Assembly (NCBI GenBank): GCA_944325175.1
Contig: CALUYZ010000003.1
Span: 62,001 to 126,000 of the forward strand
Origin: Candidatus Gastranaerophilales bacterium
GTDB lineage: Bacteria > Cyanobacteriota > Vampirovibrionia > Gastranaerophilales > Gastranaerophilaceae
Direction of reading: 5' to 3'
Length of the DNA: 64,000 nt
The notes under the pieces were generated by a model, which had not been told where the DNA came from, ran no database searches, and saw only the letters and a program-made list of their open reading frames with translations. The translations under genes and the position numbers were made by a program. Below, piece by piece: positions 640 through 59,129 of this stretch; within the stretch, counting starts at the first letter, position 1; every line of letters starts with the position of its first letter.

Positions 640-1686
640 ATGCATGAAGATAAAATTAAAAGTTTGGTTGAGGAAATAAAAAACGACCCAAACAATCTTA
701 ATAACTACAGAGCGCTTGCAGATTTGTATATAGATAAGCAAGATTATAATTCTGCTTTTAATATTTATCAGGAAATTTTAAAGAAAAATGAAAATGATAT
801 TCAAGCACTTTTAAATTCAGGCAGTATTAAATTTTATACAAAAGAATTTAAAGAGGCGCTTAAATTTTATTCAAAAGGTATTGAAATTGAGCCTGAAAAC
901 AGCTTGTTGCACTATAACGCAGGAAATGTTTATGCAGAAATAAATGATTTTGAAGATGCTGTTCGAGAATATAAAAGTGCAATTAAAACAGGAATGAATA
1001 ATGCTGCAATTTATAATGCAATGGGCATTTTGTATTCTGATAACGGTAAATATCCTGATGCGAAAGGCTTTTTCCTTCGTGCTCTTCAATTCGAGCCTGA
1101 TAATTCGGAATGTCTTGCAAATTATGGCACCTTGTGCCAAAGAATGGGCGATTTCAAGCTGGCAGAAGAAAATTATAAAAAATCTTTTGCAATAAAAAAT
1201 GATAATGAACAGGTTGCACTTGCGCTTGCAAATTTGTATGTTCAAATGGAAAGAAAAAATGAAGCTGGAGAATTTTTTCAAAAAGCTGTTGAAATAAAGC
1301 CGGATTATTATTCTGCTTGGGTTTGCAGAGCTATTTTTCATTCGGATGAAAAAGAATTTGATGAAGCCATTAAATATTATAAAAATGCGATTGAATTAGA
1401 ACCTAAAAAATCAAATGCTTATATGCTTTTGGCTCATCTTCTTTTAAACGAAAAAAGATACGATGAAGCCATTGATACATACAAAAGAAGCTTAGAGCTT
1501 ACTGAAAATAAAACAATGGTATATGTTTTTATTGCAAATGCTTATATGCTTAATTCAAATATGAAAGAGGCAATTAATTATTACAGGCTTGCAATGAAAT
1601 CTACCAAAGATAATGCAGAAATTACCCTTATATACATTGATATTTTAAGTGAATTTATTGAAGGAAAAATAAATAATGCAGCATAA
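640..1686 (+). CDS. Tetratricopeptide repeat (TPR) protein
   Basis: The 348-residue protein is built almost entirely of about ten 34-residue TPR units, with recurring A-x-x-Y, G-x-x-Y and (I/L)-E-(I/L)-x-P-E/D signatures (for example KGIEIEPEN and QFEPDNSEC). There is no signal peptide or transmembrane segment, so it is probably a cytoplasmic scaffold; the partner is unknown. The start is supported by AAGGG 8 bases upstream. Its last 11 bases overlap the membrane-protein gene at 1676, and a second TPR gene follows. The three were probably co-transcribed. Confidence 0.85.
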   Translation: MHEDKIKSLVEEIKNDPNNLNNYRALADLYIDKQDYNSAFNIYQEILKKNENDIQALLNSGSIKFYTKEFKEALKFYSKGIEIEPENSLLHYNAGNVYAEINDFEDAVREYKSAIKTGMNNAAIYNAMGILYSDNGKYPDAKGFFLRALQFEPDNSECLANYGTLCQRMGDFKLAEENYKKSFAIKNDNEQVALALANLYVQMERKNEAGEFFQKAVEIKPDYYSAWVCRAIFHSDEKEFDEAIKYYKNAIELEPKKSNAYMLLAHLLLNEKRYDEAIDTYKRSLELTENKTMVYVFIANAYMLNSNMKEAINYYRLAMKSTKDNAEITLIYIDILSEFIEGKINNAA

Positions 1687-2086
1687 AACAGAGGTTCCTT
1701 TTTTTGAAAGAATTATTGCAGCCGGGTCATATTTAACTCTTGGCACGGTTGGCATGATTTGGTTTTTGATTAGCGTTTTTGTTGTTAAAAAACCAATGAG
1801 CGGATATTTAACATGCAATTTAATACAATCTTTTGTTTTGTCTATTTTATATGCAATTATAAGCCTTGCATACAGCATTTTTATAGGCTTATTAACAGCA
1901 ATTCCTTTTGTTGGAACTTTATTTTTGAAATTACATGTTTTTCTTTTTGAAATGCCGATTTTTAATACCTTAAATTTCATAAACTATATAATTTTATTAT
2001 TCTTATGTTATCTGTCTTTTATTTCACTTTTTGGCAAACTTCCTTATGTGCCTTATATAACAGACATTGCAAAAAAGATGTTTTAG
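1676..2086 (+). CDS. Small membrane protein, Tic20-like
   Basis: The 136-residue protein has three or four hydrophobic segments (about 12-36, 45-75, 95-115) and overlaps the preceding TPR gene by 11 bases. Two stretches resemble the Tic20/cyanobacterial Tic20-like family: SGYLTCNLIQSFVLSIL corresponds to the family's RFi-RFNvmQAilLdI helix, and the C-terminus FGKLPYVPYITDIAKKMF corresponds to the family's G-x-x-x-(I/V)P-x-Is-x-A ending. In plastids Tic20 is an inner-envelope translocon component; the role of bacterial relatives is not settled. The match is from recalled family features only, so DUF4870-type or other small membrane proteins remain possible. Confidence 0.6.
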   Translation: MQHKTEVPFFERIIAAGSYLTLGTVGMIWFLISVFVVKKPMSGYLTCNLIQSFVLSILYAIISLAYSIFIGLLTAIPFVGTLFLKLHVFLFEMPIFNTLNFINYIILLFLCYLSFISLFGKLPYVPYITDIAKKMF

Positions 2087-2141
2087 TTTACTGTTTTTAA
2101 CAAGCTTGATAGTTTTTGAAATGAATAGTATTATACTATCT

Positions 2142-3854
2142 ATGCTGGATTTTATTAAAAAACTGGTAAAAAAGATAAATAAGCTTGATGATTTTATAAA
2201 TCTTTATAAAGAAAATGCAGGCGAAGTTTCAATGCCTTCTTATGCTTATATGAACTGGGGCATAAAACTTTTAGATGTCGGAGATGAAAAAAAGGCATTG
2301 GAACTATTGGAAAAAAGTGTTGAGATGCCTTATGCAAATTCAGATTCTTATGTGAACCTTGCAATAGTACTTGCAAAAGAAAATAAATATGAGCTTGCGC
2401 TTAATTATCTTAAAAAAGCTACAAAATTAGATAATGAAAATGCAAAAGCATATCAAGTTTTGGGGTCTGTTTATTCTGAAATGGAAAATTTTGAAGAGGC
2501 AAAAAAAGCGTTTTCAATTTCAATTAAAATTAACCCCAGAAACTCTCAAACTTATATAAATCGTGCAATTTTTTATGCCAAAACAGGTAAAATTAAAGAA
2601 GCACATACAGATTTTAAAACCGCCTGTCATATAAACCCCGGAAATACACAAGGCTGGTTTTTATGGGGGGTTTTGTGTTCTCAGTGTAAAGACTATATAA
2701 ATGCAATAGACAGGCTTAAAAAGGCGGTTTCGCTTGACCCTTTTCATTCTGATGCTTACTATCACCTTGCATCTATTTCTTTTTTAACGGGTCAATTTAA
2801 AGATGCTATAAAATATGCAAAAAAATCTATTGCAATTAATCCGAAACGTCCTGAAACATATATTGCGCTTGCAGAAAGCTGGTTGCAGCTAAAAAATGAA
2901 AATGAATGTTTATCGGTTTATCCTAATGCACTAAAAGAATGTGAAGTGAACTCTCAATTTTATTATTCTTGGGGGGTTTCATTTCAATATTTTAAAAAAT
3001 GGGAAGAATCTTTTGATAAATTAAAAAAAGCAATAGAGCTTGATGAAAAAAATCACCTCGCCTATTATGCTTTATCTATTTCATATTTTAAGACAGAACA
3101 AGAAGAACAAGCTTCTAAAATGCTTGAAAAAACCATTGAAATAAAACCGGACCATTTGATAGCTTTATATAATTTAGGGCAATATTATTTAAGAAGAAAC
3201 GATTATGAGCATGCTGTCGAATATTATAAAAAAGCCGTTGCAAGCAATATAAATGCCGGTTATATTTACCTAAACATTGCATCTTGTTTTGAGCTTATGG
3301 GCAATAAAGAAGAAGCGCTTGAATATTGGAAAAAGGCGGTTGAATATAATCCAAACAATATAGATGCAAAAATAAGCCTTGCCAATGCCTATTTGAAAGC
3401 AGGCGATATTCAAAATGCAATCAGAAAAATCAGGGGTGCATACATAAATAATAAAAATGATATTAAAATTCTTTTAATGTATGGAGTTTTGCTTTTAAAT
3501 AACGGAGAATATTTTGAAGCATTGGAAAAATTAAACGATGCCCTTGAAATTAATCCGGAGTATGAAATTGCGAAATATGCAAAAGTTGAATGTCTTATAA
3601 AATTGGGCAAAATAGAAGAAGCTGAAGCAATTTACAGCCAATTTGCACAAAAAGAAAATTCAAAAGATGACTCTGATATTTTATATTTAACGGCTCTTAT
3701 TAATGAAGCTAAGATAACAAAAAGTAATAATCTTGAATTAATTGATGAAACTATAAATATTTGTGATAAAATAATTTCACTGCATAATGAAGGTGGAGTT
3801 GACTCCAAGGTATTAGCAATTAAGGACAATTTAATTAAAATTAAGGAAAATTAA
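2142..3854 (+). CDS. Large TPR-repeat protein
   Basis: About 570 residues with some 14-15 consecutive TPR units, for example ALELLEKSVEMP and AIKYAKKSIAINPKRPETY. The frame is open from 2067, but that start overlaps the previous gene, whereas the ATG at 2142 (MLDFIKKLVKK) begins a sensible protein and follows TATACT at 2132-2137, so I prefer 2142. There is no signal peptide with this start. A conserved array of this size suggests a protein-interaction scaffold. It lies 6 bases before lysC, so read-through into lysC is likely. The function is not recognisable beyond TPR. Confidence 0.8.
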   Translation: MLDFIKKLVKKINKLDDFINLYKENAGEVSMPSYAYMNWGIKLLDVGDEKKALELLEKSVEMPYANSDSYVNLAIVLAKENKYELALNYLKKATKLDNENAKAYQVLGSVYSEMENFEEAKKAFSISIKINPRNSQTYINRAIFYAKTGKIKEAHTDFKTACHINPGNTQGWFLWGVLCSQCKDYINAIDRLKKAVSLDPFHSDAYYHLASISFLTGQFKDAIKYAKKSIAINPKRPETYIALAESWLQLKNENECLSVYPNALKECEVNSQFYYSWGVSFQYFKKWEESFDKLKKAIELDEKNHLAYYALSISYFKTEQEEQASKMLEKTIEIKPDHLIALYNLGQYYLRRNDYEHAVEYYKKAVASNINAGYIYLNIASCFELMGNKEEALEYWKKAVEYNPNNIDAKISLANAYLKAGDIQNAIRKIRGAYINNKNDIKILLMYGVLLLNNGEYFEALEKLNDALEINPEYEIAKYAKVECLIKLGKIEEAEAIYSQFAQKENSKDDSDILYLTALINEAKITKSNNLELIDETINICDKIISLHNEGGVDSKVLAIKDNLIKIKEN

Positions 3855-3860
3855 GAAGCA

Positions 3861-5135
3861 ATGGCAATAGTAGTTCAAAAATTTGGCGGTACATCTTTAG
3901 CGGATGTTGAAAAAATTAAAAATGTGGCAAAAGCTGTAGTTAGAGAAAAAGAGCTTGGAAATGACGTGGTTGTTGTGGTTTCTGCAATGGGTCACACAAC
4001 GGACAATCTCATAAAATTGGCTCATGATATTTCAAAAAACCCTTCAGCAAGGGAAATGGATATGCTTATGTCAACTGGCGAACAAATTTCCATTTCGCTT
4101 TTAGCAATAGCCATTCAAGAAATGGGTTATAAAGCAGTTTCCATGACAGGCGCTCAAGTTGGCATCTACACTGAAGATACTCATTCAAAAGCAAGAATTG
4201 TTGACATTAAAACAGAAAAAATAATGTCTTATATTAAAGAGGGAAACATAGTTATTGTTGCAGGTTTTCAAGGAATTACAAAAGATGGAGAAATAACCAC
4301 TTTGGGTCGTGGCGGTTCTGATACATCTGCTGTTGCAATCGCAGCAAAATTGCAGGTTGAAAACCTTGGAATCGAAAGATGTGATATTTATTCTGATGTT
4401 GAAGGCATTTATACTACAGACCCAAGAGTTGTGCCTACTGCAAGAAAATTAAAAGTTATTTCTTATGAAGAAATGCTTGAACTTGCAAGGGTTGGCGCAA
4501 ATGTTCTTCACCCGAGGTCTGTTGAAACTGCAAAACAGTTTCAAGTGCCGATGAGGTTAAGAAGTTCATTCAAATTAGACGATTTAGGAACACTTGTTAT
4601 AGGAGTTGAAAAAATGGAAATTTATAAACCCGTCACTGGGCTTGCTTGCGACAAATCACAAGTAAGGGTTGTTATATGCGATATTCCGGACAGACCCGGT
4701 AATGCAGGTAAATTGTTCTCTTTACTTGCAAAATATGAACTTTCAGTTGATATGATTATTCAATCCTATGCAAGAAGCTCAAATAATACTAATGACATAG
4801 CTTTCACAATAGATAAAGATGATCTTCAAAAGTTCATGTCATTAAAAGAAGAAATAACATCTATTATGAATCCTTCAAATATTCATATTGATGAAGATAT
4901 TGCAAAAATTTCAATAGTGGGTGCCGGCATGATTGACCGTCCGGGTATTGCGGCTCAAATGTTTGAATCATTAGCAAAAGAAGGTATCAACATTAAGATG
5001 ATTTCAACATCTGAAATTAAAATCAGCTGTCTTGTTGAAAAAATGCATGCAAAACAGGCAACTGAAGCTTTATGCAAAGTGTTTGAACTTGAAGGTGAAG
5101 ATGTTGCAGTTGTTCATGGAACATTACCTGATTAA
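3861..5135 (+). CDS. lysC: Aspartate kinase
   Basis: Phosphorylates aspartate, the first step to lysine, threonine, methionine and diaminopimelate. The 424-residue protein opens with VVQKFGGTSLADVEKI (the kinase K-F-G-G-T-S motif), has LGRGGSDTSAVAIAA (aspartate/ATP site), and ends with two ACT domains (about 265-345 and 350-420) that normally bind lysine or threonine for feedback control. The two-ACT length matches the common monofunctional form rather than the longer cyanobacterial four-ACT form. dapB, asd and dapA, the next lysine enzymes, are at 21-24 kb. It starts 6 bases after the TPR gene. Confidence 0.95.
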   Translation: MAIVVQKFGGTSLADVEKIKNVAKAVVREKELGNDVVVVVSAMGHTTDNLIKLAHDISKNPSAREMDMLMSTGEQISISLLAIAIQEMGYKAVSMTGAQVGIYTEDTHSKARIVDIKTEKIMSYIKEGNIVIVAGFQGITKDGEITTLGRGGSDTSAVAIAAKLQVENLGIERCDIYSDVEGIYTTDPRVVPTARKLKVISYEEMLELARVGANVLHPRSVETAKQFQVPMRLRSSFKLDDLGTLVIGVEKMEIYKPVTGLACDKSQVRVVICDIPDRPGNAGKLFSLLAKYELSVDMIIQSYARSSNNTNDIAFTIDKDDLQKFMSLKEEITSIMNPSNIHIDEDIAKISIVGAGMIDRPGIAAQMFESLAKEGINIKMISTSEIKISCLVEKMHAKQATEALCKVFELEGEDVAVVHGTLPD

Positions 5136-5145
5136 TTTTTAAATT

Positions 5146-6057
5146 ATGAATGGAAAATTTAAACTAATTACAGGTTTAGGAAACAAAGATAAAAACAAGG
5201 TGAAAAGCCTTGTTTTCCTTTGGGCAAAAGCGGGCGCCGATATTTTTGATGTTTCGCCTGCAGTTGTTCCTTTGATTCAAGAAGCAATAGTTGAAAACGG
5301 TTTAAAATTAGAAGATTATGATTTTTGCACTTCTTATGCCATAGAAGGAGATTTTCATGGCAAAAAAGCGCAAATTGATTCCATTAAATGTAAACTGTGC
5401 AATAAATGCGTTAAATCTTGCATTGAAGGCGCAATAAACCCGCCAAATATAGATGAAACAAAGTGTATCGGTTGTGCCCACTGCAAAAAGGCATGCAAAT
5501 ATGGTGCAATACATCTGTATGATGAAATTGACCACAGTTTTTATGATTTACTTAAAAAAGATGTCAAGTTGGATACGGTTGAAATTCATATTTCAATTAA
5601 AGATAAAAAAACCATTAAAGATGAATTTAAAAAAATCATAAAAGCTCTTGATAATTCAAAGTGTGCCAAAAATTCAAAAATCAGCATTTGTTTCAATAGA
5701 AAATATTTTTCAAATTCAAAAGCGGAAAAAATTCTTGCTAAATTAAAAGAAATGTCAGGCGAAAGAGAGTTTTTGGTTCAAGCAGACGGCAATTCCATGA
5801 ATGGTGCAAATAACAGTTTATCAGGTACCATTGAAACTGTTGCTTTTGGCTTATTTATAAAAAGTTTAGGATATGATGTTATTTTATCAGGCGGCTGTAA
5901 CGAATTTACGGCTGAATTAGCCAAAAATGTCGGGCTACAATGTTCAATAGGCTATGGCAGCTTTGCAAGAAAGATGACAGAAAATTTGTCCGAAGATGAA
6001 AAATTAAAAATTGCAAAAGAATTTGTCAGAAAAACAAAAGAATTATTAAATGATTAA
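5146..6057 (+). CDS. LdpA-like iron-sulfur protein
   Basis: 303 residues, homologous in my reading to cyanobacterial LdpA (light-dependent period modulator, a redox-sensing input protein of the Synechococcus circadian clock). The N-terminus KLITGLGNKDKNKV...AGADIFDVSP parallels LdpA's KLICGAS...AGADCIDVAAD. Two 4Fe-4S motifs follow: C82, C85, C88, C92 and C107, C110, C113, C117. The C-terminal block LVQADGNSMNG...GGCNEF...IGYGSFARK parallels LdpA's QTDGRPMSGD...AGGTN...YGSYAR. It lies 10 bases after lysC and its 3' end overlaps tilS by 8 bases. No clock genes (kaiABC) are in the window, so it more likely has a general redox or metabolic role here. Confidence 0.7.
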   Translation: MNGKFKLITGLGNKDKNKVKSLVFLWAKAGADIFDVSPAVVPLIQEAIVENGLKLEDYDFCTSYAIEGDFHGKKAQIDSIKCKLCNKCVKSCIEGAINPPNIDETKCIGCAHCKKACKYGAIHLYDEIDHSFYDLLKKDVKLDTVEIHISIKDKKTIKDEFKKIIKALDNSKCAKNSKISICFNRKYFSNSKAEKILAKLKEMSGEREFLVQADGNSMNGANNSLSGTIETVAFGLFIKSLGYDVILSGGCNEFTAELAKNVGLQCSIGYGSFARKMTENLSEDEKLKIAKEFVRKTKELLND

Positions 6058-7339
6058 TCTTGTTAAAAATTTTATAAAAGAAAATAATTTAGAGAATAAA
6101 ACAATTCTTTTAGGATTCTCAGGCGGTGTCGACAGCGCCACTTTGCTTGACATTCTATCTAAAATAGAAAATATAAAACCGGTTGCAATTCATCTTAATC
6201 ATAATTGGAGAGGGGAAGATTCCAAAAAAGATGAAGAGCTTGCAAGGCGCCTTGCTAAAGAAAAAAACGTTGAATTCTATTGTGAAACTCTTTCTAAAAA
6301 TGCAAAAAAAACGGAAACAGTTGCAAGAGAACTCAGGTATAAATTTTTTGAAAATTGTGCAGAAAAATTTATGGCAGATGCAATTTTTTTGGCGCACAAC
6401 AAAAATGATAATGTCGAAACCCTTATTTATAGGTTAATTAAAGGAACAGGTCCAAGCGGTCTTAATTCAATTCCAAAAAGAAGAAATTTATTCTACAGAC
6501 CCTTAATTAATACGGAAAGATGCGAGATTGAAAAATATGCAAGTGAAAACAATCTTGAATTTGCGGTTGATAAATCTAACTTTGATACAAAATATAAAAG
6601 AAATTTAATCAGGAAAAAAATTCTTCCTCTTATGCAAGAAATTAACCCTGAAGTTATTAATTCAATTTCAAACTTTATAGACCTAAACACTAAAAGTCAA
6701 AAAATTATCGACGATGTTATTTTAAATGTTCAAAAGAAAATTATTCAAAATGCCAAAATAAACAGGGAAAAATTTTTGGCGCAAAATGTTGAAATTCAAT
6801 ATGAAATAATAAACAGATACCTGAAAGGAATTATAAAAAACCGAGATTTTAAAACCATAGATAAAGTTGTTCGTTTTATAAAAAATAAATCAGTCGGCAA
6901 AATTTCAATCGGGCTGAATTTATTTTTAAAAATTTATAACAATGAAATTTATATCTTAAATACAAAACAAAAGCCTGATTTTTTTCAAATTAATTTACAA
7001 GAAAAAAATAAATTTTTGAATTACGAAATTAATCTTGAAGAAGTTGAGCTGCCTAAGGTTTTTGAAAAAAATTGTTTTATCAAACTTGATAAAAGCAAAA
7101 AATATGTAATACGAACAAGAAAAGAAGGCGATATTTTCACTCCTTTTGGTTCTAATTCACCCCAAAAATTAAAAACATATTTTATAAAGAAAAAAATTCC
7201 TTCGGAATTAAGGGATAAAATACCTTTAATTGCAATTAAAAATGAAATAATGTATATAGCAGGTGTTTCTATGAGTGAAAAATTAAAAGTAGATACAAAT
7301 GATAAAAAATGTTATAAAATAACGGTAAAGGAATTTTAA
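6050..7339 (+). CDS. tilS: tRNA(Ile)-lysidine synthetase
   Basis: Modifies C34 of tRNA-Ile(CAU) to lysidine so that it reads AUA, an essential step in bacteria and important in this AT-rich genome. The 429-residue protein has the PP-loop SGGVDS at residues 24-29, the LNHNWRGEDS motif, and the family's AHNKNDNVET segment. The C-terminal TilS domain is present (RTRKEGDIFTPFGS...KLKTYFIKKKIP). It overlaps the LdpA-like gene by 8 bases, and hpt follows 1 base after its stop. Confidence 0.95.
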   Translation: MINLVKNFIKENNLENKTILLGFSGGVDSATLLDILSKIENIKPVAIHLNHNWRGEDSKKDEELARRLAKEKNVEFYCETLSKNAKKTETVARELRYKFFENCAEKFMADAIFLAHNKNDNVETLIYRLIKGTGPSGLNSIPKRRNLFYRPLINTERCEIEKYASENNLEFAVDKSNFDTKYKRNLIRKKILPLMQEINPEVINSISNFIDLNTKSQKIIDDVILNVQKKIIQNAKINREKFLAQNVEIQYEIINRYLKGIIKNRDFKTIDKVVRFIKNKSVGKISIGLNLFLKIYNNEIYILNTKQKPDFFQINLQEKNKFLNYEINLEEVELPKVFEKNCFIKLDKSKKYVIRTRKEGDIFTPFGSNSPQKLKTYFIKKKIPSELRDKIPLIAIKNEIMYIAGVSMSEKLKVDTNDKKCYKITVKEF

Positions 7340-7340
7340 T

Positions 7341-7868
7341 ATGGAAAAACAACTAAAAACTTTAATTGATGAAAACAGGCTAAAAGAAAGAATAAAAGAG
7401 CTTGCGCAAGAAATTAACGCACAATATAAAGAAGATGAGCCAATAGTTGCAATTTGTGTTTTAAAAGGTGCAGTTATGTTTTTTTGCGAGCTTGTTAAAT
7501 ATTTAAAAATGCCTGTTCGTATGGAATTTGTCAGCTTATCAAGCTACGGATGCTCTGAATGTTCATCAGGCAGAGTTTCTGCCCTTAATGTATCTTTACC
7601 CCCACTTGAAAATCAAAAAGTTTTAGTTGTTGAAGATATTATGGATACAGGTTTGACTTTAAAATTTTTACTTGATTATCTTAAAACAAAATGTAATGTT
7701 AATGATGTTAAATTAGCTGTCATGTTTGACAAGAAATGTGCGAGAAAGTTTGATATTGAACCTGATTTTTCGGCATTTGATGTAGATGATAAATTCATTG
7801 TCGGTTTTGGGCTTGATTATAATGAATATATGAGAAATATTCCTTATGTAGGATATTATGAAAAATAG
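7341..7868 (+). CDS. hpt: Hypoxanthine phosphoribosyltransferase
   Basis: Salvages hypoxanthine and guanine to IMP and GMP using PRPP. The 175-residue length is typical. The PRPP-binding signature VLVVEDIMDTGLTL is at residues 94-107, with the two acidic residues E98 and D99, and the family's VCVLKGA-like loop appears as ICVLKGAVMF near residue 39. The pairing tilS-hpt is common in bacteria. AAGGA lies 6 bases before the ATG. Confidence 0.93.
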   Translation: MEKQLKTLIDENRLKERIKELAQEINAQYKEDEPIVAICVLKGAVMFFCELVKYLKMPVRMEFVSLSSYGCSECSSGRVSALNVSLPPLENQKVLVVEDIMDTGLTLKFLLDYLKTKCNVNDVKLAVMFDKKCARKFDIEPDFSAFDVDDKFIVGFGLDYNEYMRNIPYVGYYEK

Positions 7869-9621: not shown

Positions 9622-11424
9622 ATGAAGGAAAAATTTTTAAAAAATATTTTTTTTCTAATAGCTGTCACATTTGTTATAGCTTTTCTTGTTTTTCTTTTTA
9701 AATTATTCAACATCTGGAATTTTTTACTTGAAATTGAAAATAAAACATTTGATTTTCGTCAACAAATAATTTCACAGTATAAAAAATCAGATAAAGATAT
9801 TGTGATTTTAGCAGTTGATGATTCAAGCTACGAATACATTGTTTCAACTTATGGCGCTTGGCCTGCCCCCAGAGATTTTTGGGCACATATTTCAAATGGT
9901 ATTGAACAAGCAAAACCAAGGGCGATTGTATATGATCTTTTGTTTGTTCAGAATTTTAAAGTTTTCGGCAACAGTGATAAAAAGCTGACAGATACCGTTA
10001 ATAATAATGATAATATTTATGTTTCAATGACATTTGATTCAAGACCAAAAGAAGTAAGAAAACCAATCGAGCTTCCAAAATCTTTAGAAACAAACATTAA
10101 CGGTAATTTTGAATTTTTAAAAAAAGCACCTCTTGTAAATAAAACAAATGTAATGGGAATTTTACCGGATTTATTAAACGGAACAGATAATATAGGTTTT
10201 ATTAACGTTGCAAGAGATAAAGACGGAATTTTAAGAACAAGTATTCCTTTATTTGTTTATAAAGATAAATTCTATAAGCATCTGGATTTTCTTTTGGCAC
10301 TTGATATTTTGGGATTGGATTCTAAAAATTTAACCATAGATAAAAACCGTGCAATCAAGCTTGCTGACGGCAGAAAAATCCCCCTAAATGAAGATGGCAG
10401 ATGCTATCTCAACTGGTATGGCGAGCAAGAATCTTTTAAATATATTCCTCTTTGGGAAGCTGACAAGGCAATTAAAGAAAATAATATAAACTATTTGAAT
10501 TCAACATTTAACAATAAAATTATTTTTGTTGGTGTAACAACAACAAGTTTGAACGATATTAAATCTACCCCAACGTCCAGAATGTTTGCAGGTGTTGAAA
10601 CCCATGCAACTTTTTTAAACAATATTTTTGATAATAATTTGATTAAAAAAACAAGCAATTTGTTTGATATAATTGCAACAATAATATTAACTCTTTTAAC
10701 CGCTTTTATTGTTGTGAAATCAAAAAATGTGCCTTACGCAATTTTGGGTGTAATTGCACTTATAATAATTTATTCAATTTTAACAATACTTATAATGCAC
10801 TTTTTAAATCTGTGGGTTGGGCTTGTTTTACCTTTGGTTTGTTCAATCGGTACGGTTACCGGATGTTATGCAATTAAGTATATTGTAACCTCAAGAGATT
10901 ATGAACATACTTATAAATTGGCTGTTACAGACGGTTTAACAGATATGTACAACCACAGATATTTTCAAGAGCAAATGAAGTTAAATATAGATAATGCAAA
11001 AAGATACAATACGCCTTTTTCTTTAATTATGGTTGATATTGACTTCTTTAAAAAATTTAACGATAAATACGGTCATCAATCAGGCGACGCTGTTTTAAGA
11101 CAAGTGGCTCAAACAATTAAGAAAAATATAAGGTCAACTGATATTCCTTGCAGATACGGCGGCGAAGAAATGAGTGTTATTTTGTCTAACACTAAAAAAG
11201 AAGAAGCTTATATCGTTGCTCAAAAAATATGCGAAGCTGTCAGAAATAAAGAATTTGAACTTGCAACGGGTGATTGGACCCATGTTACAATTAGCTTAGG
11301 AGTTGCAAGCGCGCCTTTTGATTCTGATTCTGTTCAAGGGCTTATAGAATATGCCGATAAATGTCTTTATATTGCAAAAGAAAACGGAAGAAATCAGGTT
11401 GTTTCAAAAATTGAAAATAACTAA
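9622..11424 (+). CDS. CHASE2-GGDEF membrane diguanylate cyclase
   Basis: 600 residues. A first transmembrane helix (about 8-30) is followed by an extracytoplasmic CHASE2 sensor domain (about 35-330; hallmarks IVILAVDDSSYEY and the GVTTTSLNDI region), then three helices (about 345-420) and a cytoplasmic GGDEF domain. The active-site motif is GGEEM at 513-517, with Met replacing the usual Phe. The RxxD inhibitory site (RSTD, 504-507) sits five residues before it, implying product inhibition by c-di-GMP. It should synthesise c-di-GMP in response to an external signal. Its stop overlaps the convergent gene by 4 bases. Confidence 0.92.
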   Translation: MKEKFLKNIFFLIAVTFVIAFLVFLFKLFNIWNFLLEIENKTFDFRQQIISQYKKSDKDIVILAVDDSSYEYIVSTYGAWPAPRDFWAHISNGIEQAKPRAIVYDLLFVQNFKVFGNSDKKLTDTVNNNDNIYVSMTFDSRPKEVRKPIELPKSLETNINGNFEFLKKAPLVNKTNVMGILPDLLNGTDNIGFINVARDKDGILRTSIPLFVYKDKFYKHLDFLLALDILGLDSKNLTIDKNRAIKLADGRKIPLNEDGRCYLNWYGEQESFKYIPLWEADKAIKENNINYLNSTFNNKIIFVGVTTTSLNDIKSTPTSRMFAGVETHATFLNNIFDNNLIKKTSNLFDIIATIILTLLTAFIVVKSKNVPYAILGVIALIIIYSILTILIMHFLNLWVGLVLPLVCSIGTVTGCYAIKYIVTSRDYEHTYKLAVTDGLTDMYNHRYFQEQMKLNIDNAKRYNTPFSLIMVDIDFFKKFNDKYGHQSGDAVLRQVAQTIKKNIRSTDIPCRYGGEEMSVILSNTKKEEAYIVAQKICEAVRNKEFELATGDWTHVTISLGVASAPFDSDSVQGLIEYADKCLYIAKENGRNQVVSKIENN

Positions 11425-11849
11425 GCCTCTGTGGTTAAAAATTTAGCTTGCCTTGGTAAAAACATTTTCTCATTGCTCATTTTGTTATCTTTTTTTTCAA
11501 AATCCTTATTTTCAACCCAAATTTCAAAGTCAAAATTCTTTTGCTCTTGAATTATTTCTTCTTTAACTTCAATCGCATAATTTATATCTACAAAATTCAG
11601 CTTTTCATATTTTTCAATGTAAAAATCGCTTTCGCCGCAATTTGTACAAAATTTATCTTCGGGAATAATGTTTCCAAACTCTTTTTTGGCTGTCCTTTTT
11701 ATTTGACAATGTGAACATCTTACTATGTAATAGCTTTTTTTTAAATATTTACCGCACCTTGGACAATAACCTTCGTTTGAATATAAAAGAGCGCCAATGT
11801 GTCTGCATTTAAACAAATTTTTAATTATTTCTTTTAGTTGAATTTTCAT
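11421..11849 (-). CDS. Zinc-ribbon hypothetical protein
   Basis: 142 residues. Three cysteine knuckles are visible: CPRCGKYLKKSYYIVRC-SHC and FCTNCGES, i.e. CxxC...CxxC...CxxC, which would bind one or two zinc ions. The C-terminal half is charged and low in complexity, without recognised domains. It converges on the GGDEF gene (4-base overlap of the ends). I do not recognise a family; a nucleic-acid- or protein-binding role is only suggested by the zinc ribbons. Confidence 0.65.
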   Translation of the reverse strand: MKIQLKEIIKNLFKCRHIGALLYSNEGYCPRCGKYLKKSYYIVRCSHCQIKRTAKKEFGNIIPEDKFCTNCGESDFYIEKYEKLNFVDINYAIEVKEEIIQEQKNFDFEIWVENKDFEKKDNKMSNEKMFLPRQAKFLTTEA

Positions 11850-12706: not shown

Positions 12707-13597
12707 TTATATTAACTTTAAAATAACCTTTATGGCGTCAACCATGCCGTCAAAATTTGCAATATTTTTGCCTTTAATATCATAAGCTGTGCCTGATGAG
12801 GGGGATGTTCTTATAATGCTAAGCCCTATTGTTGTGTTAACGGCATCATTCCCTGTTAGCGCCTTAACGGCACACAAACCCTGATCATGGTACATTGCAA
12901 CGTATGCATCATAATCTTGTTTTTTATCTTGAAGATATTTTTTGCCGGCATTAGAAAAAAGCCCGTCAGCACTATATGGACCGTATGCAAAAATACCAAG
13001 CGAATTTAGCGAATTAACCGCAGGAATTATTGTATCTATTTCTTCATGACCCAAAATGCCGTTTTCGCCCGCATGGGGGTTAAGCGCACAAAGGGCAATT
13101 TTTGGATATTGAATATTGCATTTTTCTTTTAGAAATTTATTTAGCCTTTGAACTTTTTGAATAATCATATCTTTAGTTATTTCAATATTTTTTAACGGCA
13201 CATGTCTTGTTAAAAGCATTACCCTTAATTCTTTTGCAATAAAAAGCATTTCTGCCTTTTCATTTTCGTTATCAGATAACAGCTTTTCAAGAATTTCTGT
13301 TTGCCCTGAATAATGATAGCCTGATTTATTCAGTTGTTCTTTTGAAACAGGCGCAGTTACTATGCCTTGAATTTGCCCTAACCGTGCAAGGTCTGCTGCT
13401 GTTCTTAAACATTCAAAACAATATTTGCCAATATCTTTTTGATTAAGCTCAATAGTTTCATATCCTAAGCCTAAGTTTTTTCCTATGATTACAATTTTAT
13501 CTACAGGCGGTCTTAATTCTAAAAGAGCCTTATATGTTATTTCTTCCCCAATTCCAAGCGGGTCGCCTGTTGTTATAGCTATTTTATTTTTGTTCAT
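12707..13597 (-). CDS. pdxA: PdxA-family 4-phosphate dehydrogenase (possibly threonate/erythronate type)
   Basis: 296 residues. N-terminal GDPLGIGEE, central LTRHVPL, ALNPHAGENG and C-terminal MYHDQGL and TSPSSGTAYDI are PdxA-family motifs with the metal-binding histidines. PdxA oxidises 4-phosphohydroxythreonine in vitamin B6 synthesis. However, the gene overlaps by 14 bases a DUF1537 sugar-acid kinase, and that pairing is the hallmark of PdxA2, which oxidises D-threonate or D-erythronate 4-phosphate to dihydroxyacetone phosphate. I think the catabolic role is at least as likely. Sequence alone cannot separate the two. Confidence 0.88.
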   Translation of the reverse strand: MNKNKIAITTGDPLGIGEEITYKALLELRPPVDKIVIIGKNLGLGYETIELNQKDIGKYCFECLRTAADLARLGQIQGIVTAPVSKEQLNKSGYHYSGQTEILEKLLSDNENEKAEMLFIAKELRVMLLTRHVPLKNIEITKDMIIQKVQRLNKFLKEKCNIQYPKIALCALNPHAGENGILGHEEIDTIIPAVNSLNSLGIFAYGPYSADGLFSNAGKKYLQDKKQDYDAYVAMYHDQGLCAVKALTGNDAVNTTIGLSIIRTSPSSGTAYDIKGKNIANFDGMVDAIKVILKLI

Positions 13598-14900
13598 GGT
13601 TTTTGAAATAGTTAATTATATCCACTAAAGCTGTAATTGAACCCATATTTCCTGATTTTGTAACAATAAAGCCGGCGTTTGAATCCATACAAAGTGAAAT
13701 TGCAGGCAAAATGCTGTCTGTAACTTGCAGATAACCGCAATTTAATATATTTGTACATTTATAAGATGTTTCGCCGCCTATTGTGATTAAAATACATTCT
13801 GCTTTATTTTTTACATTTAATGAAATATTAGCTAAATAATCGGTTATCATAGATGCTAACGCCTCTTTTGTAATGCCTTCGTCAATAAGGAGCTCTTTGC
13901 CTTTTTCTTCAAGCATTTCTTCTTCAATTTTAGAAACATGCGCAACTACGATGTTACTTTTGCCGAAATTTTGTACAATTCTATCCGCCATTATTGCATA
14001 ATCATTGGATAAAATATCTTGCAATTTTAAATCAATACAATAAACATTATTTATATCATCGTCCAATAACAGCTTATTTATTTGCGCTGTTGTCATAGAA
14101 TTTTTTGAACCGGATAAAATAAGTTTTGGTAATTTTGGAATAACTTTTTGAACCGGCGGTTTGTTGTTTTCAGGTAACCAAACATTGCCCAAAGCGTTTG
14201 CAAGACCGGCAGAGCCAACCGGCAAAATATTGAACTGACTTTTTGTAATAGCCAGCACGATTTGTTCTAAATCAATGGCAGAAACTGCATCAACCACAAT
14301 CAATTTTTTACCTTGAGATACAAGTTCGTTTAATTTTGTTGTAATTGGTCCTGCGCCTTTTGCTACAATGTTTAATTGAATTGTTGCAATGGTGTCGTAT
14401 AAATTTTCATTAACTTTTTTCTTTAAGATATCAGGAATGTATGAATCATAAATAGGAGCGTATGAATCTCTTGCTGCATCGGTTCTTTCTATTGGCACGC
14501 CTTTTAGTAATTGATAGCCGCCTATTGTAATTCTTCCTTCTCTGATAAAAGCGGGCGCAATAACCGCTGCATCGTATCCTATGGCATCAAGCATGGCTAA
14601 GGTTTCAACGGCAATATTTCCCCTTAATGTTGAATCAATTTTTTTATAGAAATATTCGACAGAAAAGTTATCTTTCAGTTTTCTTGCGCTTTCCCAAACT
14701 TTTTTGGCAGCAGTTTTTGCATCTATATTTCTTGTTTCTGTCGTTAGCGCAAACGTGCCTACATTGGGATGATTTTGAATAATTTCATCCGTATCGAAAA
14801 CAATTTCTGTATTTGAACCTTTTATAAAAAATTGAAGTGCTGTATCATTTGCACCTGTTAAATCATCGGCAATAATGCCAATGGTGCCTGTTATAGCCAT
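13584..14900 (-). CDS. Four-carbon acid sugar kinase family protein (DUF1537)
   Basis: 438 residues. N-terminus GIIADDLTGANDTALQF is the family's (A/I)DDxTGA signature, and the C-terminal half has the nucleotide-binding GGETSYK and GFIVTKSGNMG. Family members (DtnK, DenK, OtnK) phosphorylate D-threonate, D-erythronate or oxo-tetronates. It is followed by and overlaps the pdxA-family gene, giving a kinase-dehydrogenase pair to dihydroxyacetone phosphate. It starts 3 bases after the ssb stop, so all three are probably one transcript. The exact substrate cannot be read from the sequence. Confidence 0.85.
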   Translation of the reverse strand: MAITGTIGIIADDLTGANDTALQFFIKGSNTEIVFDTDEIIQNHPNVGTFALTTETRNIDAKTAAKKVWESARKLKDNFSVEYFYKKIDSTLRGNIAVETLAMLDAIGYDAAVIAPAFIREGRITIGGYQLLKGVPIERTDAARDSYAPIYDSYIPDILKKKVNENLYDTIATIQLNIVAKGAGPITTKLNELVSQGKKLIVVDAVSAIDLEQIVLAITKSQFNILPVGSAGLANALGNVWLPENNKPPVQKVIPKLPKLILSGSKNSMTTAQINKLLLDDDINNVYCIDLKLQDILSNDYAIMADRIVQNFGKSNIVVAHVSKIEEEMLEEKGKELLIDEGITKEALASMITDYLANISLNVKNKAECILITIGGETSYKCTNILNCGYLQVTDSILPAISLCMDSNAGFIVTKSGNMGSITALVDIINYFKNHEQK

Positions 14901-55160: not shown

Positions 55161-57470
55161 TTAAATATTGCTTGTCATTTTCCATATTCCGCAAGGGCAA
55201 ACGCCTGCGCAGATGCCGCAACCGATGCATTTGTTGGGGTCAGAAATATATGCAAAATCTTCACCCATTTCGACTCTTTCAATGGCGCCTTTTGGGCAAG
55301 AATTCATGCACATTTTGCAATCTCTGCAAACGCCACAGCTTAAACATCTGTCTTTTTCGTCCAAAACATCCATTGCATAAAGGTCAGAACCCTTTAGAGT
55401 CGGGTAATATGCACATTTAACTTCATCTAATGAAATTTTTTCTTTTGTTTTAAATTCTTTTAAATCATTTTTTTCAAATAAATTATCAATATTTATTGCA
55501 ACTTCTCTTCCTTTGCCTATCGCATCGCAAAATAAACCTTGACCCGTGCAATCGCCGATAAAGAAAAGTTTTTTTGAAACTTCGGATTGACTAAATTTAT
55601 TTACAAGAGGGAATTTTCTTTCATTCAAATATTTTTCGTCAATAAAATCAAATACCGGCCTATCACCGATTGAAATAATAACAGTGTCTGCTTTTAAAAG
55701 AGTTCCGTCTTTTAGGTGAACACCTTTTTCATCAACACTTTCAGTAAAGCAAGGGTATAAAATTTTAGCACCCAAAGACTTTGCATGTTCAATTTCTTTG
55801 TCAAATGCCAAAGGTTTTTGAATGTCTATTGCAGTAACGTTTTTAGCACCCATTTTATAAGCGCCTATCACAACATCCATTGCAGCGTTGCCGGCACCAA
55901 TAATAACAACGTTATTGCCTACTTTAACTTTTTTGCCTTTGTTTATTTCTTTTAAGAAATCTAAACCTTTAGTTAGCCTTTCTTTTCCATTAATCGGAAT
56001 AACAACAGGATTGTGTGCGCCAATAGCAACTACTACTACATCAAATTCTTTTTGTATTCTTTCAAATTCGTCGTTGTCTATTGTAATGCCAAGATTGAAT
56101 TTAATGCCTGAATTTTTAATTATCTCAAGTTCGGCATTTAATGTATCTTGATTCAAGCGGTCAGAAGGAATTACTTGTCTTAATTTGCCGCCTATTTCAT
56201 TATCTTTTTCAAAAACTTCTACATTATATCCTTCTTTTTGCAGTGTCCAAGCGCAAGAAAGCCCTGCAACACCTGCACCAATAATTGCAACCTTTTTATT
56301 TTTATATGGTTCAACCACTTTTATATCAACATTTTCAAACGATTTTATACCAAGTGGTGCAATTTTAATGTGTTCATCTATATATTTTCTGGAACATTCA
56401 TTCATACAAAGGTTTGGGCAAACCTGTCCGCAAACACTTGCCGGAAAAGGAGAATAATCGTAGATTAAATTGAGCGCTTCTTGAAGTTTGCCTTCTCTTA
56501 TTAATTCAATTCTTTTTTGGGTTGGAATAGAAACAGGGCAATTAAATTCACATGGCGGGGTTTTTAGATTGTTTTCCCAACTTGGTGTTCTTAATCTGTT
56601 ATCGCCTGTGTTTATTACATCAATAACTTCTCTGTAGGAGCCAAAAAATTCAGAAAAAATGCCGTCTTTAACCCATTTTTGTTCTCTAAATTCTTTAATT
56701 GAATATGGAACTTGTTTAACTTTTTTATCATAAGGTTTTGCAAGAATTTTTTTCCATTGAGAAAATTCCGTTAATTCTTCATATAAATTTTGCCTGTCAA
56801 TTTCGCCCAAAAACCTCATTAAACCTGATTTTAAGAAGTTTTTATCGCTTTCATCTAATTCGTATATATCAACGTCATTGGTTAAGCCTTTGACATTGCC
56901 TCTAACATAAACAACACCGCCAACCATACCGCAGCAGCTTCTATCAGATAAAACCGATTCCATATTCTCGCAGCCATAGCCGCAAACAATAGCACGCCCG
57001 CCGCCCATAAATTCAAAAGAAAATGAGCCTGTGTTTTTTAACACCCAAAATTCAGGTTCTTCAAATTTTGGGTCATGTTTCATTAAAGCGCCCGAGCGAG
57101 TTCCCACTCTTCCTGCTACATAAATCTTGCCTGAAGCTTGACAATGCGCTGCGGTATCACCGGCGTCACCCAAAACGGTAATTTCAGCGCCTGAATTCAA
57201 CCAACCGATATCAGCCGGAGCTGAACCTTTTACTATAATTTTTGTACCTGCCATGCCCATAGAACCCACTCTTTGACCGGGGTTTGTAATGTGGAATATC
57301 AAAGGTTTGCCGTCTTTTGACCACAAAGGCCCGCCTATATCATGCTGACCTGAGGCTAAAATTTTAAATTCGTTAAAACCCATCTCGATTTTTTCATAAA
57401 TTATATCGAGAAGTTCTTTTGTTGAAAGTCTTTTGTTATCTTGCAGAGTATCAATTATAGTAGTGTTCAT
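55161..57470 (-). CDS. Glutamate synthase GXGXG domain fused to GltD-like flavoprotein and ferredoxin
   Basis: 769 residues. Residues 1-250: GXGXG (alpha-subunit C-terminal) domain (GMAGTKIIVKG, GDAGDTAAHCQASGKIYVAGRVG). Residues about 295-370: 4Fe-4S domain (CEFNCPVSI, VCGQVCPNLCMNECS). About 385-690: FAD (GAGVAGLSCAWTL) and NAD(P) (GAGNAAMDVVIG) folds. C-terminus: two 4Fe-4S motifs (CLSCGVCRDCKMCMNSCP and CIGCGICAGVCPCG). Lies 3' of the two other glutamate synthase parts on the same strand. It likely handles electron input and the structural helix. Confidence 0.85.
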   Translation of the reverse strand: MNTTIIDTLQDNKRLSTKELLDIIYEKIEMGFNEFKILASGQHDIGGPLWSKDGKPLIFHITNPGQRVGSMGMAGTKIIVKGSAPADIGWLNSGAEITVLGDAGDTAAHCQASGKIYVAGRVGTRSGALMKHDPKFEEPEFWVLKNTGSFSFEFMGGGRAIVCGYGCENMESVLSDRSCCGMVGGVVYVRGNVKGLTNDVDIYELDESDKNFLKSGLMRFLGEIDRQNLYEELTEFSQWKKILAKPYDKKVKQVPYSIKEFREQKWVKDGIFSEFFGSYREVIDVINTGDNRLRTPSWENNLKTPPCEFNCPVSIPTQKRIELIREGKLQEALNLIYDYSPFPASVCGQVCPNLCMNECSRKYIDEHIKIAPLGIKSFENVDIKVVEPYKNKKVAIIGAGVAGLSCAWTLQKEGYNVEVFEKDNEIGGKLRQVIPSDRLNQDTLNAELEIIKNSGIKFNLGITIDNDEFERIQKEFDVVVVAIGAHNPVVIPINGKERLTKGLDFLKEINKGKKVKVGNNVVIIGAGNAAMDVVIGAYKMGAKNVTAIDIQKPLAFDKEIEHAKSLGAKILYPCFTESVDEKGVHLKDGTLLKADTVIISIGDRPVFDFIDEKYLNERKFPLVNKFSQSEVSKKLFFIGDCTGQGLFCDAIGKGREVAINIDNLFEKNDLKEFKTKEKISLDEVKCAYYPTLKGSDLYAMDVLDEKDRCLSCGVCRDCKMCMNSCPKGAIERVEMGEDFAYISDPNKCIGCGICAGVCPCGIWKMTSNI

Positions 57471-57485
57471 AATTTCCTTTTATTT

Positions 57486-59129
57486 TTAGCAAACATGCTG
57501 TATGCCTAATCTTTCGGCAACATTTTTATCAACTGTAACAAGGGCGTCAGATCGACCAACAGGCAATGTTGAATTGCCAATGGGCGCCATAAGTTTTTTA
57601 AGTTCTGTATCTGTTGCAAGAAAATAATTAACAATATTTTGTGCAACTTTATCTATATCAAGTCTTTTCATTAGAATTGGATTTTGGGTTGTTAGTCCTG
57701 CTGGACAAAGACCTGTGTTGCAAGCGTTGCATCTGCCGTAATCGTCACCTAAACAGCCTGCAATTTGAAGCATTAATCGCCCTGTAAATACGCCGTTTGC
57801 GCCTAAACAAATCATCTTAAAGGCATCTGCCGCTAAGGTTCCTTTCATGCCTAAACCGCCTGCAGCCCAAAGCGGAATTTGACCTTGTTTTCCTTGATGC
57901 ACTGCAGCATTGTAGCAATCTCTAAGCCTTGAAACAATCGGGTGCCCTGTATGGTCTAATGACGTTTCATGAGCAGCGCCCGTGCCGCCTGCAATACCGT
58001 CTAAGAAAAAGCCGCCGACAATGTCGTATGGGTCTCTTAATAAATTGTTGTAAACAGAAACAGATGTAACCGATGCAGCCACTTTAATTGCAACCGGTAC
58101 TTTAAATTTGAAAGCTGAATTCATTGACAAAAACATCTTTTGAACGCTTTCTTCGATTGAATAAAGCCCTTGGTGGTTAGGTGGCGATAGTAAATCTGAT
58201 TTTGGAACACCCCTTATTTCTTGAATATGTTTTGCAACTTTTTTAGCCAATAATAAACCGCCATCTCCGGGTTTTGCGCCTTGACCTATTTTGATTAGTA
58301 TTCCTGCGGGGTCTTCTGTCATATATGGCATTGAATTTATGATTCTATTCCAGCCAAAATGACCTGATGCAATCTGCAAAATCATATATTTTAAATATTT
58401 TGACCTTAACAGTTTTTCAGGCACACCGCCTTCGCCTGAGCACATTCTGATTGGAATGTTATAGACCTCATTAAGGTATGCAACAGCTATTGCAATAGCT
58501 TCCCAAAGCCTTGGAGATAAAGCCCCTATTGACATATCTCCGATTATGATAGGGTAAATCCATCTTGTTGTGGGAATTTTTTTGGTCAATGAAAGATTTC
58601 CCATCGGGTCAATTTCAAAAGGAAGATTTTCAGGCGGCATTACTCTTCCAAAAGGCGCTAAAAGTTCAAATGTGTGGCGCATAGCATCCAGAGAAGGGTC
58701 TGTCATTTGAGAAATTCTGCCCACTTTAATTTTATCTAAGGTCCTTCCTTCTGTGTGCAAATTGGTTCTTCCGCCTCTTTTGGGTGATTCTGCGTTTAGC
58801 GCTCTATATTTAACATTCATCCTGTTTCTTTCGTTATAAACAGGCTTAATTGCTTCATTACCGCAAACTTTAGCGCACATTCCGCAGCCGACACAATTTT
58901 TAGATTTTGTAACAACTTGTTTTATGACAGGAACCGTTGTTTCTGATACTTCAGGGTTTGGTGTGCAGCCATTTGAGATAACTTTTTTTCTCTTTTGAAC
59001 GTCAGCTTTTATTGCACCGAAAGTGCAAGCGGCAATACATTTACCGCAAAGTGTGCATTTGCTTGAATCATGCTCAATCTGCCAAGTTAAATCTTCTTTG
59101 TTTATTCCTGATATATCTACTGTGCCCAT
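57486..59129 (-). CDS. Glutamate synthase FMN domain protein (archaeal-type large part)
   Basis: 547 residues. Two N-terminal 4Fe-4S motifs (CTLCGKCIAAC, CVGCGMCAKVC), then the FMN-binding glutamate synthase barrel (about 150-520: GDMSIGALSP, IKIGQGAKPGDGG, ASVTSVSVYNNLL) and the 3Fe-4S site CNACNTGLCPAGLTTQ. Makes glutamate from 2-oxoglutarate and ammonia delivered by the amidotransferase. It overlaps the upstream gene by 13 bases and lies 15 bases before the next. Confidence 0.93.
   Translation of the reverse strand: MGTVDISGINKEDLTWQIEHDSSKCTLCGKCIAACTFGAIKADVQKRKKVISNGCTPNPEVSETTVPVIKQVVTKSKNCVGCGMCAKVCGNEAIKPVYNERNRMNVKYRALNAESPKRGGRTNLHTEGRTLDKIKVGRISQMTDPSLDAMRHTFELLAPFGRVMPPENLPFEIDPMGNLSLTKKIPTTRWIYPIIIGDMSIGALSPRLWEAIAIAVAYLNEVYNIPIRMCSGEGGVPEKLLRSKYLKYMILQIASGHFGWNRIINSMPYMTEDPAGILIKIGQGAKPGDGGLLLAKKVAKHIQEIRGVPKSDLLSPPNHQGLYSIEESVQKMFLSMNSAFKFKVPVAIKVAASVTSVSVYNNLLRDPYDIVGGFFLDGIAGGTGAAHETSLDHTGHPIVSRLRDCYNAAVHQGKQGQIPLWAAGGLGMKGTLAADAFKMICLGANGVFTGRLMLQIAGCLGDDYGRCNACNTGLCPAGLTTQNPILMKRLDIDKVAQNIVNYFLATDTELKKLMAPIGNSTLPVGRSDALVTVDKNVAERLGIQHVC

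Follow-up and report, generated by a model that had tools for sequence, protein, structure and literature searches.

We propose that the LdpA-like gene at positions 5146 to 6057 of the window, the 64,000-nucleotide stretch of DNA from a gut bacterium of the Candidatus Gastranaerophilales analysed here, belongs to a tilS-linked branch of the LdpA superfamily specific to Gastranaerophilales, that this branch is not the clock-input LdpA of cyanobacteria and that its product may act as an enzyme on a phosphosugar or sugar acid; we give this reading as a whole a probability of about 0.5. The original prediction had taken the gene for a homologue of the circadian input protein LdpA, retained in an organism without a visible clock. 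Membership of the LdpA superfamily stands, on the Pfam model PF12617, while the idea that it is LdpA itself is weakened by the equivalog model, the trees, the separation from ycf45 and a second copy of the gene in a genome of the same genus (G507).

Gene, operon and family membership

The open reading frame runs exactly from 5146 to 6057 on the forward strand, in agreement with the original prediction, and the linkage to lysC and tilS described there is borne out, as lysC ends at 5135 and tilS starts at 6050. The features of the region are as follows.

1676-2086, forward strand: 136-residue protein of no known family, with no match in Pfam or NCBIfam
2067-3854, forward strand: TPR-repeat protein (TPR families), upstream of lysC
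3861-5135, forward strand: lysC, aspartate kinase (TIGR00656, 434.8 bits against a cut-off of 402.25), 10 bases upstream of LdpA-T
5146-6057, forward strand: LdpA-T, the LdpA-like gene, named for its tilS linkage; 303 residues, predicted TIM barrel into which a two-cluster ferredoxin domain is inserted
5389-5421, forward strand: first 4Fe-4S motif, Cys 82, 85, 88 and 92 (C-x2-C-x2-C-x3-C)
5464-5496, forward strand: second 4Fe-4S motif, Cys 107, 110, 113 and 117 (C-x2-C-x2-C-x3-C); Fer4 (PF00037) over its cut-off at residues 101-122
5779-5805, forward strand: QADGNSMNG, residues 212-220, at the end of predicted barrel strand 6
5890-5901, forward strand: GGCN, after predicted strand 7 (GGCNEF is residues 249-254)
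5953-5970, forward strand: YGSFAR, residues 270-275, after predicted strand 8
6050-7339, forward strand: tilS, tRNA-Ile lysidine synthetase (TIGR02432 over its cut-off), overlapping LdpA-T by 8 bases
7341-7868, forward strand: hpt, hypoxanthine phosphoribosyltransferase (TIGR01203, 179.3 bits against 150), downstream of tilS

The dN/dS of LdpA-T, about 0.13-0.15 against three congeners, indicates that the gene is under purifying selection. The TPR-repeat gene lies two genes upstream of LdpA-T in all seven loci of the genus, and in one congener (L075) a KdsC-like phosphatase gene occupies the third place upstream, matching the position of the 136-residue protein in the window. Elsewhere in the window, on the reverse strand, a PdxA-family gene adjoins a gene for a two-domain sugar-acid kinase-like protein (SBD_N, NBD_C; 12707-14900), a pair which we take to be typical of four-carbon sugar-acid use, and split glutamate-synthase-like genes with ferredoxin domains lie at 55161-59129.

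All of the motifs originally read from the sequence are present in the order given, namely AGADIFDV (residues 29-36), the two 4Fe-4S motifs, QADGNSMNG, GGCNEF and YGSFAR. In an alignment of 70 rows (A3) the four cysteines of the first 4Fe-4S motif are invariant, as are Cys 107, 110 and 113 of the second, with Cys 117 conserved in at least 90% of rows. The profile searches that had been suggested as a check gave a divided answer. LdpA-T matches the Pfam model of the C-terminal LdpA domain (PF12617, LdpA_C) with 36.1 bits against a cut-off of 22.2, and with an E value of 6.5e-9 the match is not due to chance; the model is a loose one that takes in several kinds, and proteins from non-cyanobacterial sugar-gene clusters also pass it (63.5 bits for L113, 44.8 bits for L118). 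However, LdpA-T falls below the cut-off of the NCBIfam LdpA equivalog NF045992 (58.2 bits against 450) and has no match to PF25160, the LdpA Fe-S domain, at E ≤ 0.001. The NF045992 cut-off is likewise missed by 30 non-photosynthetic relatives, which indicates that it is tuned to photosynthetic cyanobacteria. The scores of PF25160 elsewhere (cut-off 27.6) are 82.4 in a photosynthetic LdpA (L004), 25.9 in L033 and 30.6 in L042.

The alternative that the gene encodes a generic ferredoxin lacking the C-terminal LdpA domain, which the original prediction had named, is ruled out by the LdpA_C match and by the conservation of the whole barrel. A search of PDB sequences with LdpA-T returned only ferredoxins and chance matches. 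Judged from its sequence, LdpA-T is a member of the LdpA superfamily: it shares with LdpA (NF045992, PF12617) the domain order, the two 4Fe-4S motifs, LdpA_C and the invariant pocket residues. It differs from LdpA in that identity is about 25% (23-28% to nine photosynthetic rows), in missing the equivalog cut-off, in lying outside the LdpA clade and in having neither a ycf45 neighbour nor, as far as its genome was searched, a clock. The trait of clock-input LdpA is redox sensing that sets the level of CikA and the circadian period.

Descent, gene order and the clock

Of the 386 genomes sampled in the phylum, 377 have PF12617, nearly always in a single copy; among 14 control genomes it occurs in one, that of Synechococcus elongatus. 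When genome contigs were scanned with a closer alignment, 90 relatives were confirmed and 80 loci retained; one scan of viral contigs yielded no relative. Full-length homologues also occur in genomes labelled as other phyla, i.e. Aquicultor, Anammoxibacter, Omnitrophota, Nitrospirae, Elusimicrobiales, Desulfobacterales, the Olavius Delta 4 endosymbiont, Nitrosomonadales, Pelagibacteraceae and methanogens including strain Methanocalculus taiwanensis P2F9704a; most of these homologues come from MAGs or single-cell genomes, so that single labels may be wrong. The non-cyanobacterial set used for counts comprises 14 loci. It excludes L115, from a MAG labelled Clostridiaceae and probably mislabelled, because its gene groups with Gastranaerophilales. 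In two Prochlorococcus single-cell genomes (L133 at 9938-11827, and L138) the LdpA-like gene belongs to the sugar-cluster type. The ORF after it in L133 has 283 residues, scores 58 bits against the LdpA profile and matches nothing in Pfam. Testing the Prochlorococcus single-cell genomes for co-occurrence of both types yielded one match each, which is no evidence for it. The Gastranaerophilales contig CALUZA010000004.1 (L096, L147) has a pair of LdpA-like genes separated by about 13 kb, one belonging to a sugar cluster.

Schmelling et al. (2017; PMC5520375) describe LdpA as exclusive to cyanobacteria; their survey retained only organisms with a KaiC homologue, and the LdpA-like proteins of clock-less organisms would therefore have been invisible to it. 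RpaA, RpaB and NblS were found in earlier work, the relevant passages of which (PMC3787301, PMC4040986, PMC5877343) are silent on LdpA in Melainabacteria, and our search of the literature on LdpA in Gastranaerophilales found no paper.

Three maximum-likelihood trees were built, from 111, 89 and 83 rows. Two loci in which a simple caller gave no ORF (L100, L110) and one represented by a 101-residue ferredoxin ORF (L061) were left out of the analysis; the 89-row tree further omits three long branches (L054, L055, L056) and 19 near-duplicates, and for the 83-row tree 26 further rows were thinned and 20 new intermediates added. The LdpA proteins of photosynthetic cyanobacteria and of their sister families form one clade, with a support of 100 in the 111-row tree and 100/99 in the other two, and LdpA-T lies outside this clade in all three. 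The stem leading to the window's genus measured 1.7 in the 89-row tree; intermediates were then sought and added, and support rose in the 83-row tree, where LdpA-T falls within a clade of 22 tilS-linked Gastranaerophilales rows (100/99). A split supported at 98/96 places the tilS-linked clade on the side of the sugar-cluster copies of Aquicultor, Elusimicrobiales, Omnitrophota and Nitrospirae. All seven proteins of the genus score 198-227 bits against the non-LdpA profile and 161-190 bits against the 14 non-cyanobacterial rows, both above the 129-156 bits reached with the LdpA profile. The window agrees with the non-LdpA state at six of 16 diagnostic columns and with the LdpA state at four, which is weak support.

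Downstream of true LdpA, 12 of 16 loci have a ycf45-like R3H/AAA gene (Pfam models R3H, Spore_III_AA and PTPase), in 11 of them as the immediate neighbour; of the other loci, L163 has ycf45, its ldpA ORF having been lost by the gene caller, and in L165, L166 and L167 no ycf45 was found. Gastranaerophilales have kept ycf45, with a match in 91 of 97 genomes, and in the stretch fetched around it none of 12 loci has an LdpA-family gene beside it; the ycf45 of the window's genome lies at a contig end. Genome-wide fast evolution is not supported, as this ycf45 is 52% identical to the query, the range in relatives with a whole-protein match being 47-55%. True LdpA also adjoins an Orn/Lys/Arg decarboxylase-like gene in L161, L162, L167 and L169, with a SpoU methylase gene upstream in L161 and L162, and the order spoU-decarboxylase-ldpA-ycf45 is possibly that of an ancient operon. 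Of the 23 tilS-linked loci, 21 have tilS directly downstream (L211 has no tilS and L217 ends there) and 15 have lysC directly upstream; the tilS-linked genes of L205 and L213 were not called as ORFs and were counted between lysC and tilS from their match coordinates. One genome of the window's genus, G507, has a tilS-linked copy (369.7 bits) together with a second one (168.3 bits) that lies in a cluster of TPP-, KdsB-, HMGL- and HAD-like genes. Because both occur in G507, the tilS-linked and the sugar-cluster copies are separate genes.

The first alternative, to which the original prediction leads, is that LdpA-T is true LdpA, inherited vertically, moved from its place beside ycf45 into the tilS operon and now evolving fast as a redox sensor without a clock. 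We consider this unlikely, though deserving of attention. Sisterhood of LdpA and the tilS-linked clade was not rejected by the AU test, either before the intermediates were added (p 0.41) or after (p 0.235), nor was a single clade of all copies of the phylum (p 0.185 and p 0.0882). The p of 0.235 leaves a fast-evolving sister of LdpA, so that the reading of a retained LdpA is weakened and not refuted, and we do not claim that a vertical origin from LdpA is rejected. The nearly universal, single-copy occurrence of PF12617 in the phylum, the retention of all eight cluster cysteines and the presence of true LdpA in clock-poor sister families also favour it, but LdpA-T lies outside the 100/99 clade, its profile scores favour the non-LdpA side, it misses the NF045992 cut-off and the linkage to ycf45 is lost. 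The sugar-cluster copy in G507 counts in the same direction, showing that there are two genes but not which of them is LdpA. Setting the position outside the LdpA clade against the AU tests and the six-to-four division of diagnostic columns, we call the gene LdpA-like; it is probably not LdpA proper.

It is improbable that LdpA-T instead serves its own operon, as an Fe-S enzyme or redox switch for aspartate-family amino acids, tRNA lysidine or purine salvage. Such a role would suit the frequent adjacency of tilS and lysC and the 8-base overlap with tilS. The tilS-hpt arrangement is, however, a common housekeeping pair in bacteria, so the linkage of LdpA-T may be passive; moreover, L211 has the gene without tilS, and outside the tilS-linked clade no relative lies near lysC, tilS or hpt.

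No clock was found in the genome that the window comes from (2.02 Mb, 52 contigs, 89.1% complete), as had been predicted: KaiA and KaiB each gave 0 matches, and KaiC only a partial match of 49.3 bits to a 467-residue ORF (cut-off 408). Across the class, KaiC over the cut-off occurs in 9 of 194 genomes, all of family f43, and in 0 of the 97 genomes of the window's family (f1); KaiB matches occur in 19 of 194 genomes, none in f1, and KaiA gave one match among 117 genomes, a weak one in f45 interrupted by stop codons. In f43 genomes, which measure 4-9 Mb (L062-L069, e.g. G443:C186, G442:C4, G420:C33 and G407:C1), KaiB-like and full-length KaiC-like genes are adjacent. The suggestion of a non-photosynthetic relative of cyanobacteria holds, the nearest named relatives being Candidatus Gastranaerophilales MAGs. 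Other lineages do support the broader idea that LdpA can do without a clock, as true LdpA is found in sister families in which none of 19 genomes has a full-length KaiC over the cut-off (G013 and G044 have partial or weaker KaiC-like matches).

Predicted barrel and sugar-gene neighbourhoods

The AlphaFold2 model of LdpA-T, built from 70 sequences, has a pLDDT of 95.1 and a pTM of 0.91 and predicts a TIM barrel (strands 5-8, 33-35, 59-65, 144-149, 178-184, 209-214, 244-248 and 267-270) in which the ferredoxin part forms an insert between strands 3 and 4. Its best Foldseek match is tryptophan synthase alpha (E 7e-7); a second structure aligner placed ribulose-5-phosphate 3-epimerase at the top (Z 16.9, rmsd 3.4, 202 residues), with hexulose-6-phosphate synthase and ketogulonate-phosphate decarboxylase also top-ranked (Z 16-17). 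With many phosphosugar barrels scoring almost equally, the fold points to a class and not to a reaction. LdpA-T resembles the ribulose-phosphate-binding TIM barrels in fold (Z 16-17 over about 195-200 residues) and in the glycine loops after strands 7 and 8, with conserved GG and GS, where phosphate binding is putative. It differs from ribulose-5-phosphate 3-epimerase, hexulose-6-phosphate synthase and 3-keto-L-gulonate-6-phosphate decarboxylase in sequence (9-15% identity in the rows listed), and, to our knowledge, none of these three enzymes has a ferredoxin insert. A literature search joining LdpA with a TIM barrel or Pfam found no paper.

The residues invariant across all kinds of homologue in a 22-row alignment are A29, D35, S63, H71, seven of the eight cysteines, G109, E146, H148, Q212, D214, G215, G249, G250, G271 and R275. 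The model places the polar ones (D35, S63, H71, E146, H148, Q212, D214 and R275) on or just after strands, as in a barrel active site. GGCN would there take the position of the usual phosphate-gripping loop of phosphosugar TIM barrels, a putative phosphate role, and YGSFAR is the putative second half of this candidate site. Conservation reaches at least 90% in 39 columns across 103 other rows; 32 of these are unchanged in the window, among them all eight cysteines and the pocket residues. In QADGNSMNG, Q212, D214 and G215 are kept and residues 217 and 219 are altered from the PxS of the 103 other rows, the window's genus having N at 219 where others have S. Several of the seven changed columns (C9T, A11L, P217S, S219N, T251C, A286K and L293F) lie beside the putative phosphate or pocket loops, and the changes on the window's branch would fit a shifted substrate better than decay. 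That the barrel is dead and the protein a pure redox sensor or electron carrier would accord with the two ferredoxin-like clusters and with passages that describe cyanobacterial LdpA as a redox sensor (PMC13421787, PMC6378743), but it is very improbable, since the non-cysteine pocket residues from D35 to R275, needless in a dead barrel, are kept among those 32 columns.

The gene directly downstream encodes a HAD phosphatase in 12 of the 14 non-cyanobacterial loci, a count that omits two Pelagibacteraceae loci in which a 118-residue ORF has a DFDGTL motif only, with no Pfam match where tested (L148). Within four genes, these 14 loci have HMGL-like genes in 10 cases, HpcH/HpaI-like genes in 11, cytidylyltransferase-like genes in 9 and TPP enzymes in 3; the same classes among the other 64 loci number 11, 10, 2 and 4, and HAD genes 9. 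The cytidylyltransferase of L118 passes the KdsB models NF009905 and TIGR00466, and the HpaI-like and hydroxy-oxovalerate-aldolase-like neighbours score under their equivalog cut-offs. In the Pelagibacteraceae single-cell genomes L148 and L149, the LdpA-like gene lies beside an HpcH-like gene, the 118-residue DFDGTL ORF and a cytidylyltransferase-like gene. A literature search on HpaI/HMGL gave no useful paper.

Among the 23 tilS-linked loci, a KdsC-like HAD gene lies upstream in eight, including the congener L075 (that of L202 reaches 108.0 bits with TIGR01670, against 106.95), and a NeuB-family gene (PF03102) is present in four. LdpA-T is a full-length homologue of the sugar-cluster LdpA-like proteins, with 27-31% identity to the 14 rows and with invariants and tree side in common; these proteins sit in sugar-gene clusters, mostly with a HAD phosphatase, whereas LdpA-T sits in lysC-tilS-hpt. 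No HAD phosphatase or sugar-acid genes were found near LdpA-T in the window, and the sole KdsC match of its genome lies elsewhere and is 36% identical. The operon copy of KdsC is lost in the window's lineage.

The substrate class that we propose for LdpA-T follows from the relatives, which lie repeatedly beside HAD phosphatases, HpaI- or HMGL-type aldolases and KdsB-like CMP transferases, and from the KdsC-like and NeuB-like genes near its own closer relatives. LdpA-T would grip a phosphorylated sugar or sugar acid through the GG loop after strand 7 and the GS loop after strand 8, and its two 4Fe-4S clusters would either pass electrons to the reaction centre or hold it. The enzyme would make or change a phosphorylated sugar or sugar acid, and a HAD phosphatase would then dephosphorylate the product. 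The tilS-linked branch would most likely have come from a sugar-cluster copy that moved into the tilS operon and changed fast there (PMSG to SMNG). Several points count against a sugar substrate: nothing in lysC, tilS or hpt suggests sugars, the window's operon retains neither a HAD nor a KdsC gene, and the aldolase-like neighbours are below equivalog cut-offs. Many phosphate-binding barrels also score alike, and a common fold shows no function.

Meaning for the LdpA family

The findings that bear on the family are the full-length LdpA homologues in methanogenic archaea and in bacterial phyla other than Cyanobacteriota, the enzyme-like conservation and the sugar-acid gene neighbours. A wider reading, which we offer tentatively, is that LdpA was not a clock protein by origin: it would belong to a widespread family of ferredoxin-bearing TIM-barrel enzymes for phosphosugars or ulosonic acids, of which the clock adopted one branch as a redox input, while Gastranaerophilales run another without a clock. 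The clock role of LdpA may thus be a derived one. This wider reading of LdpA is worth testing and, if it is true, the redox sensing of LdpA and the change in CikA would become a question about the substrate of an enzyme, testable with purified protein.
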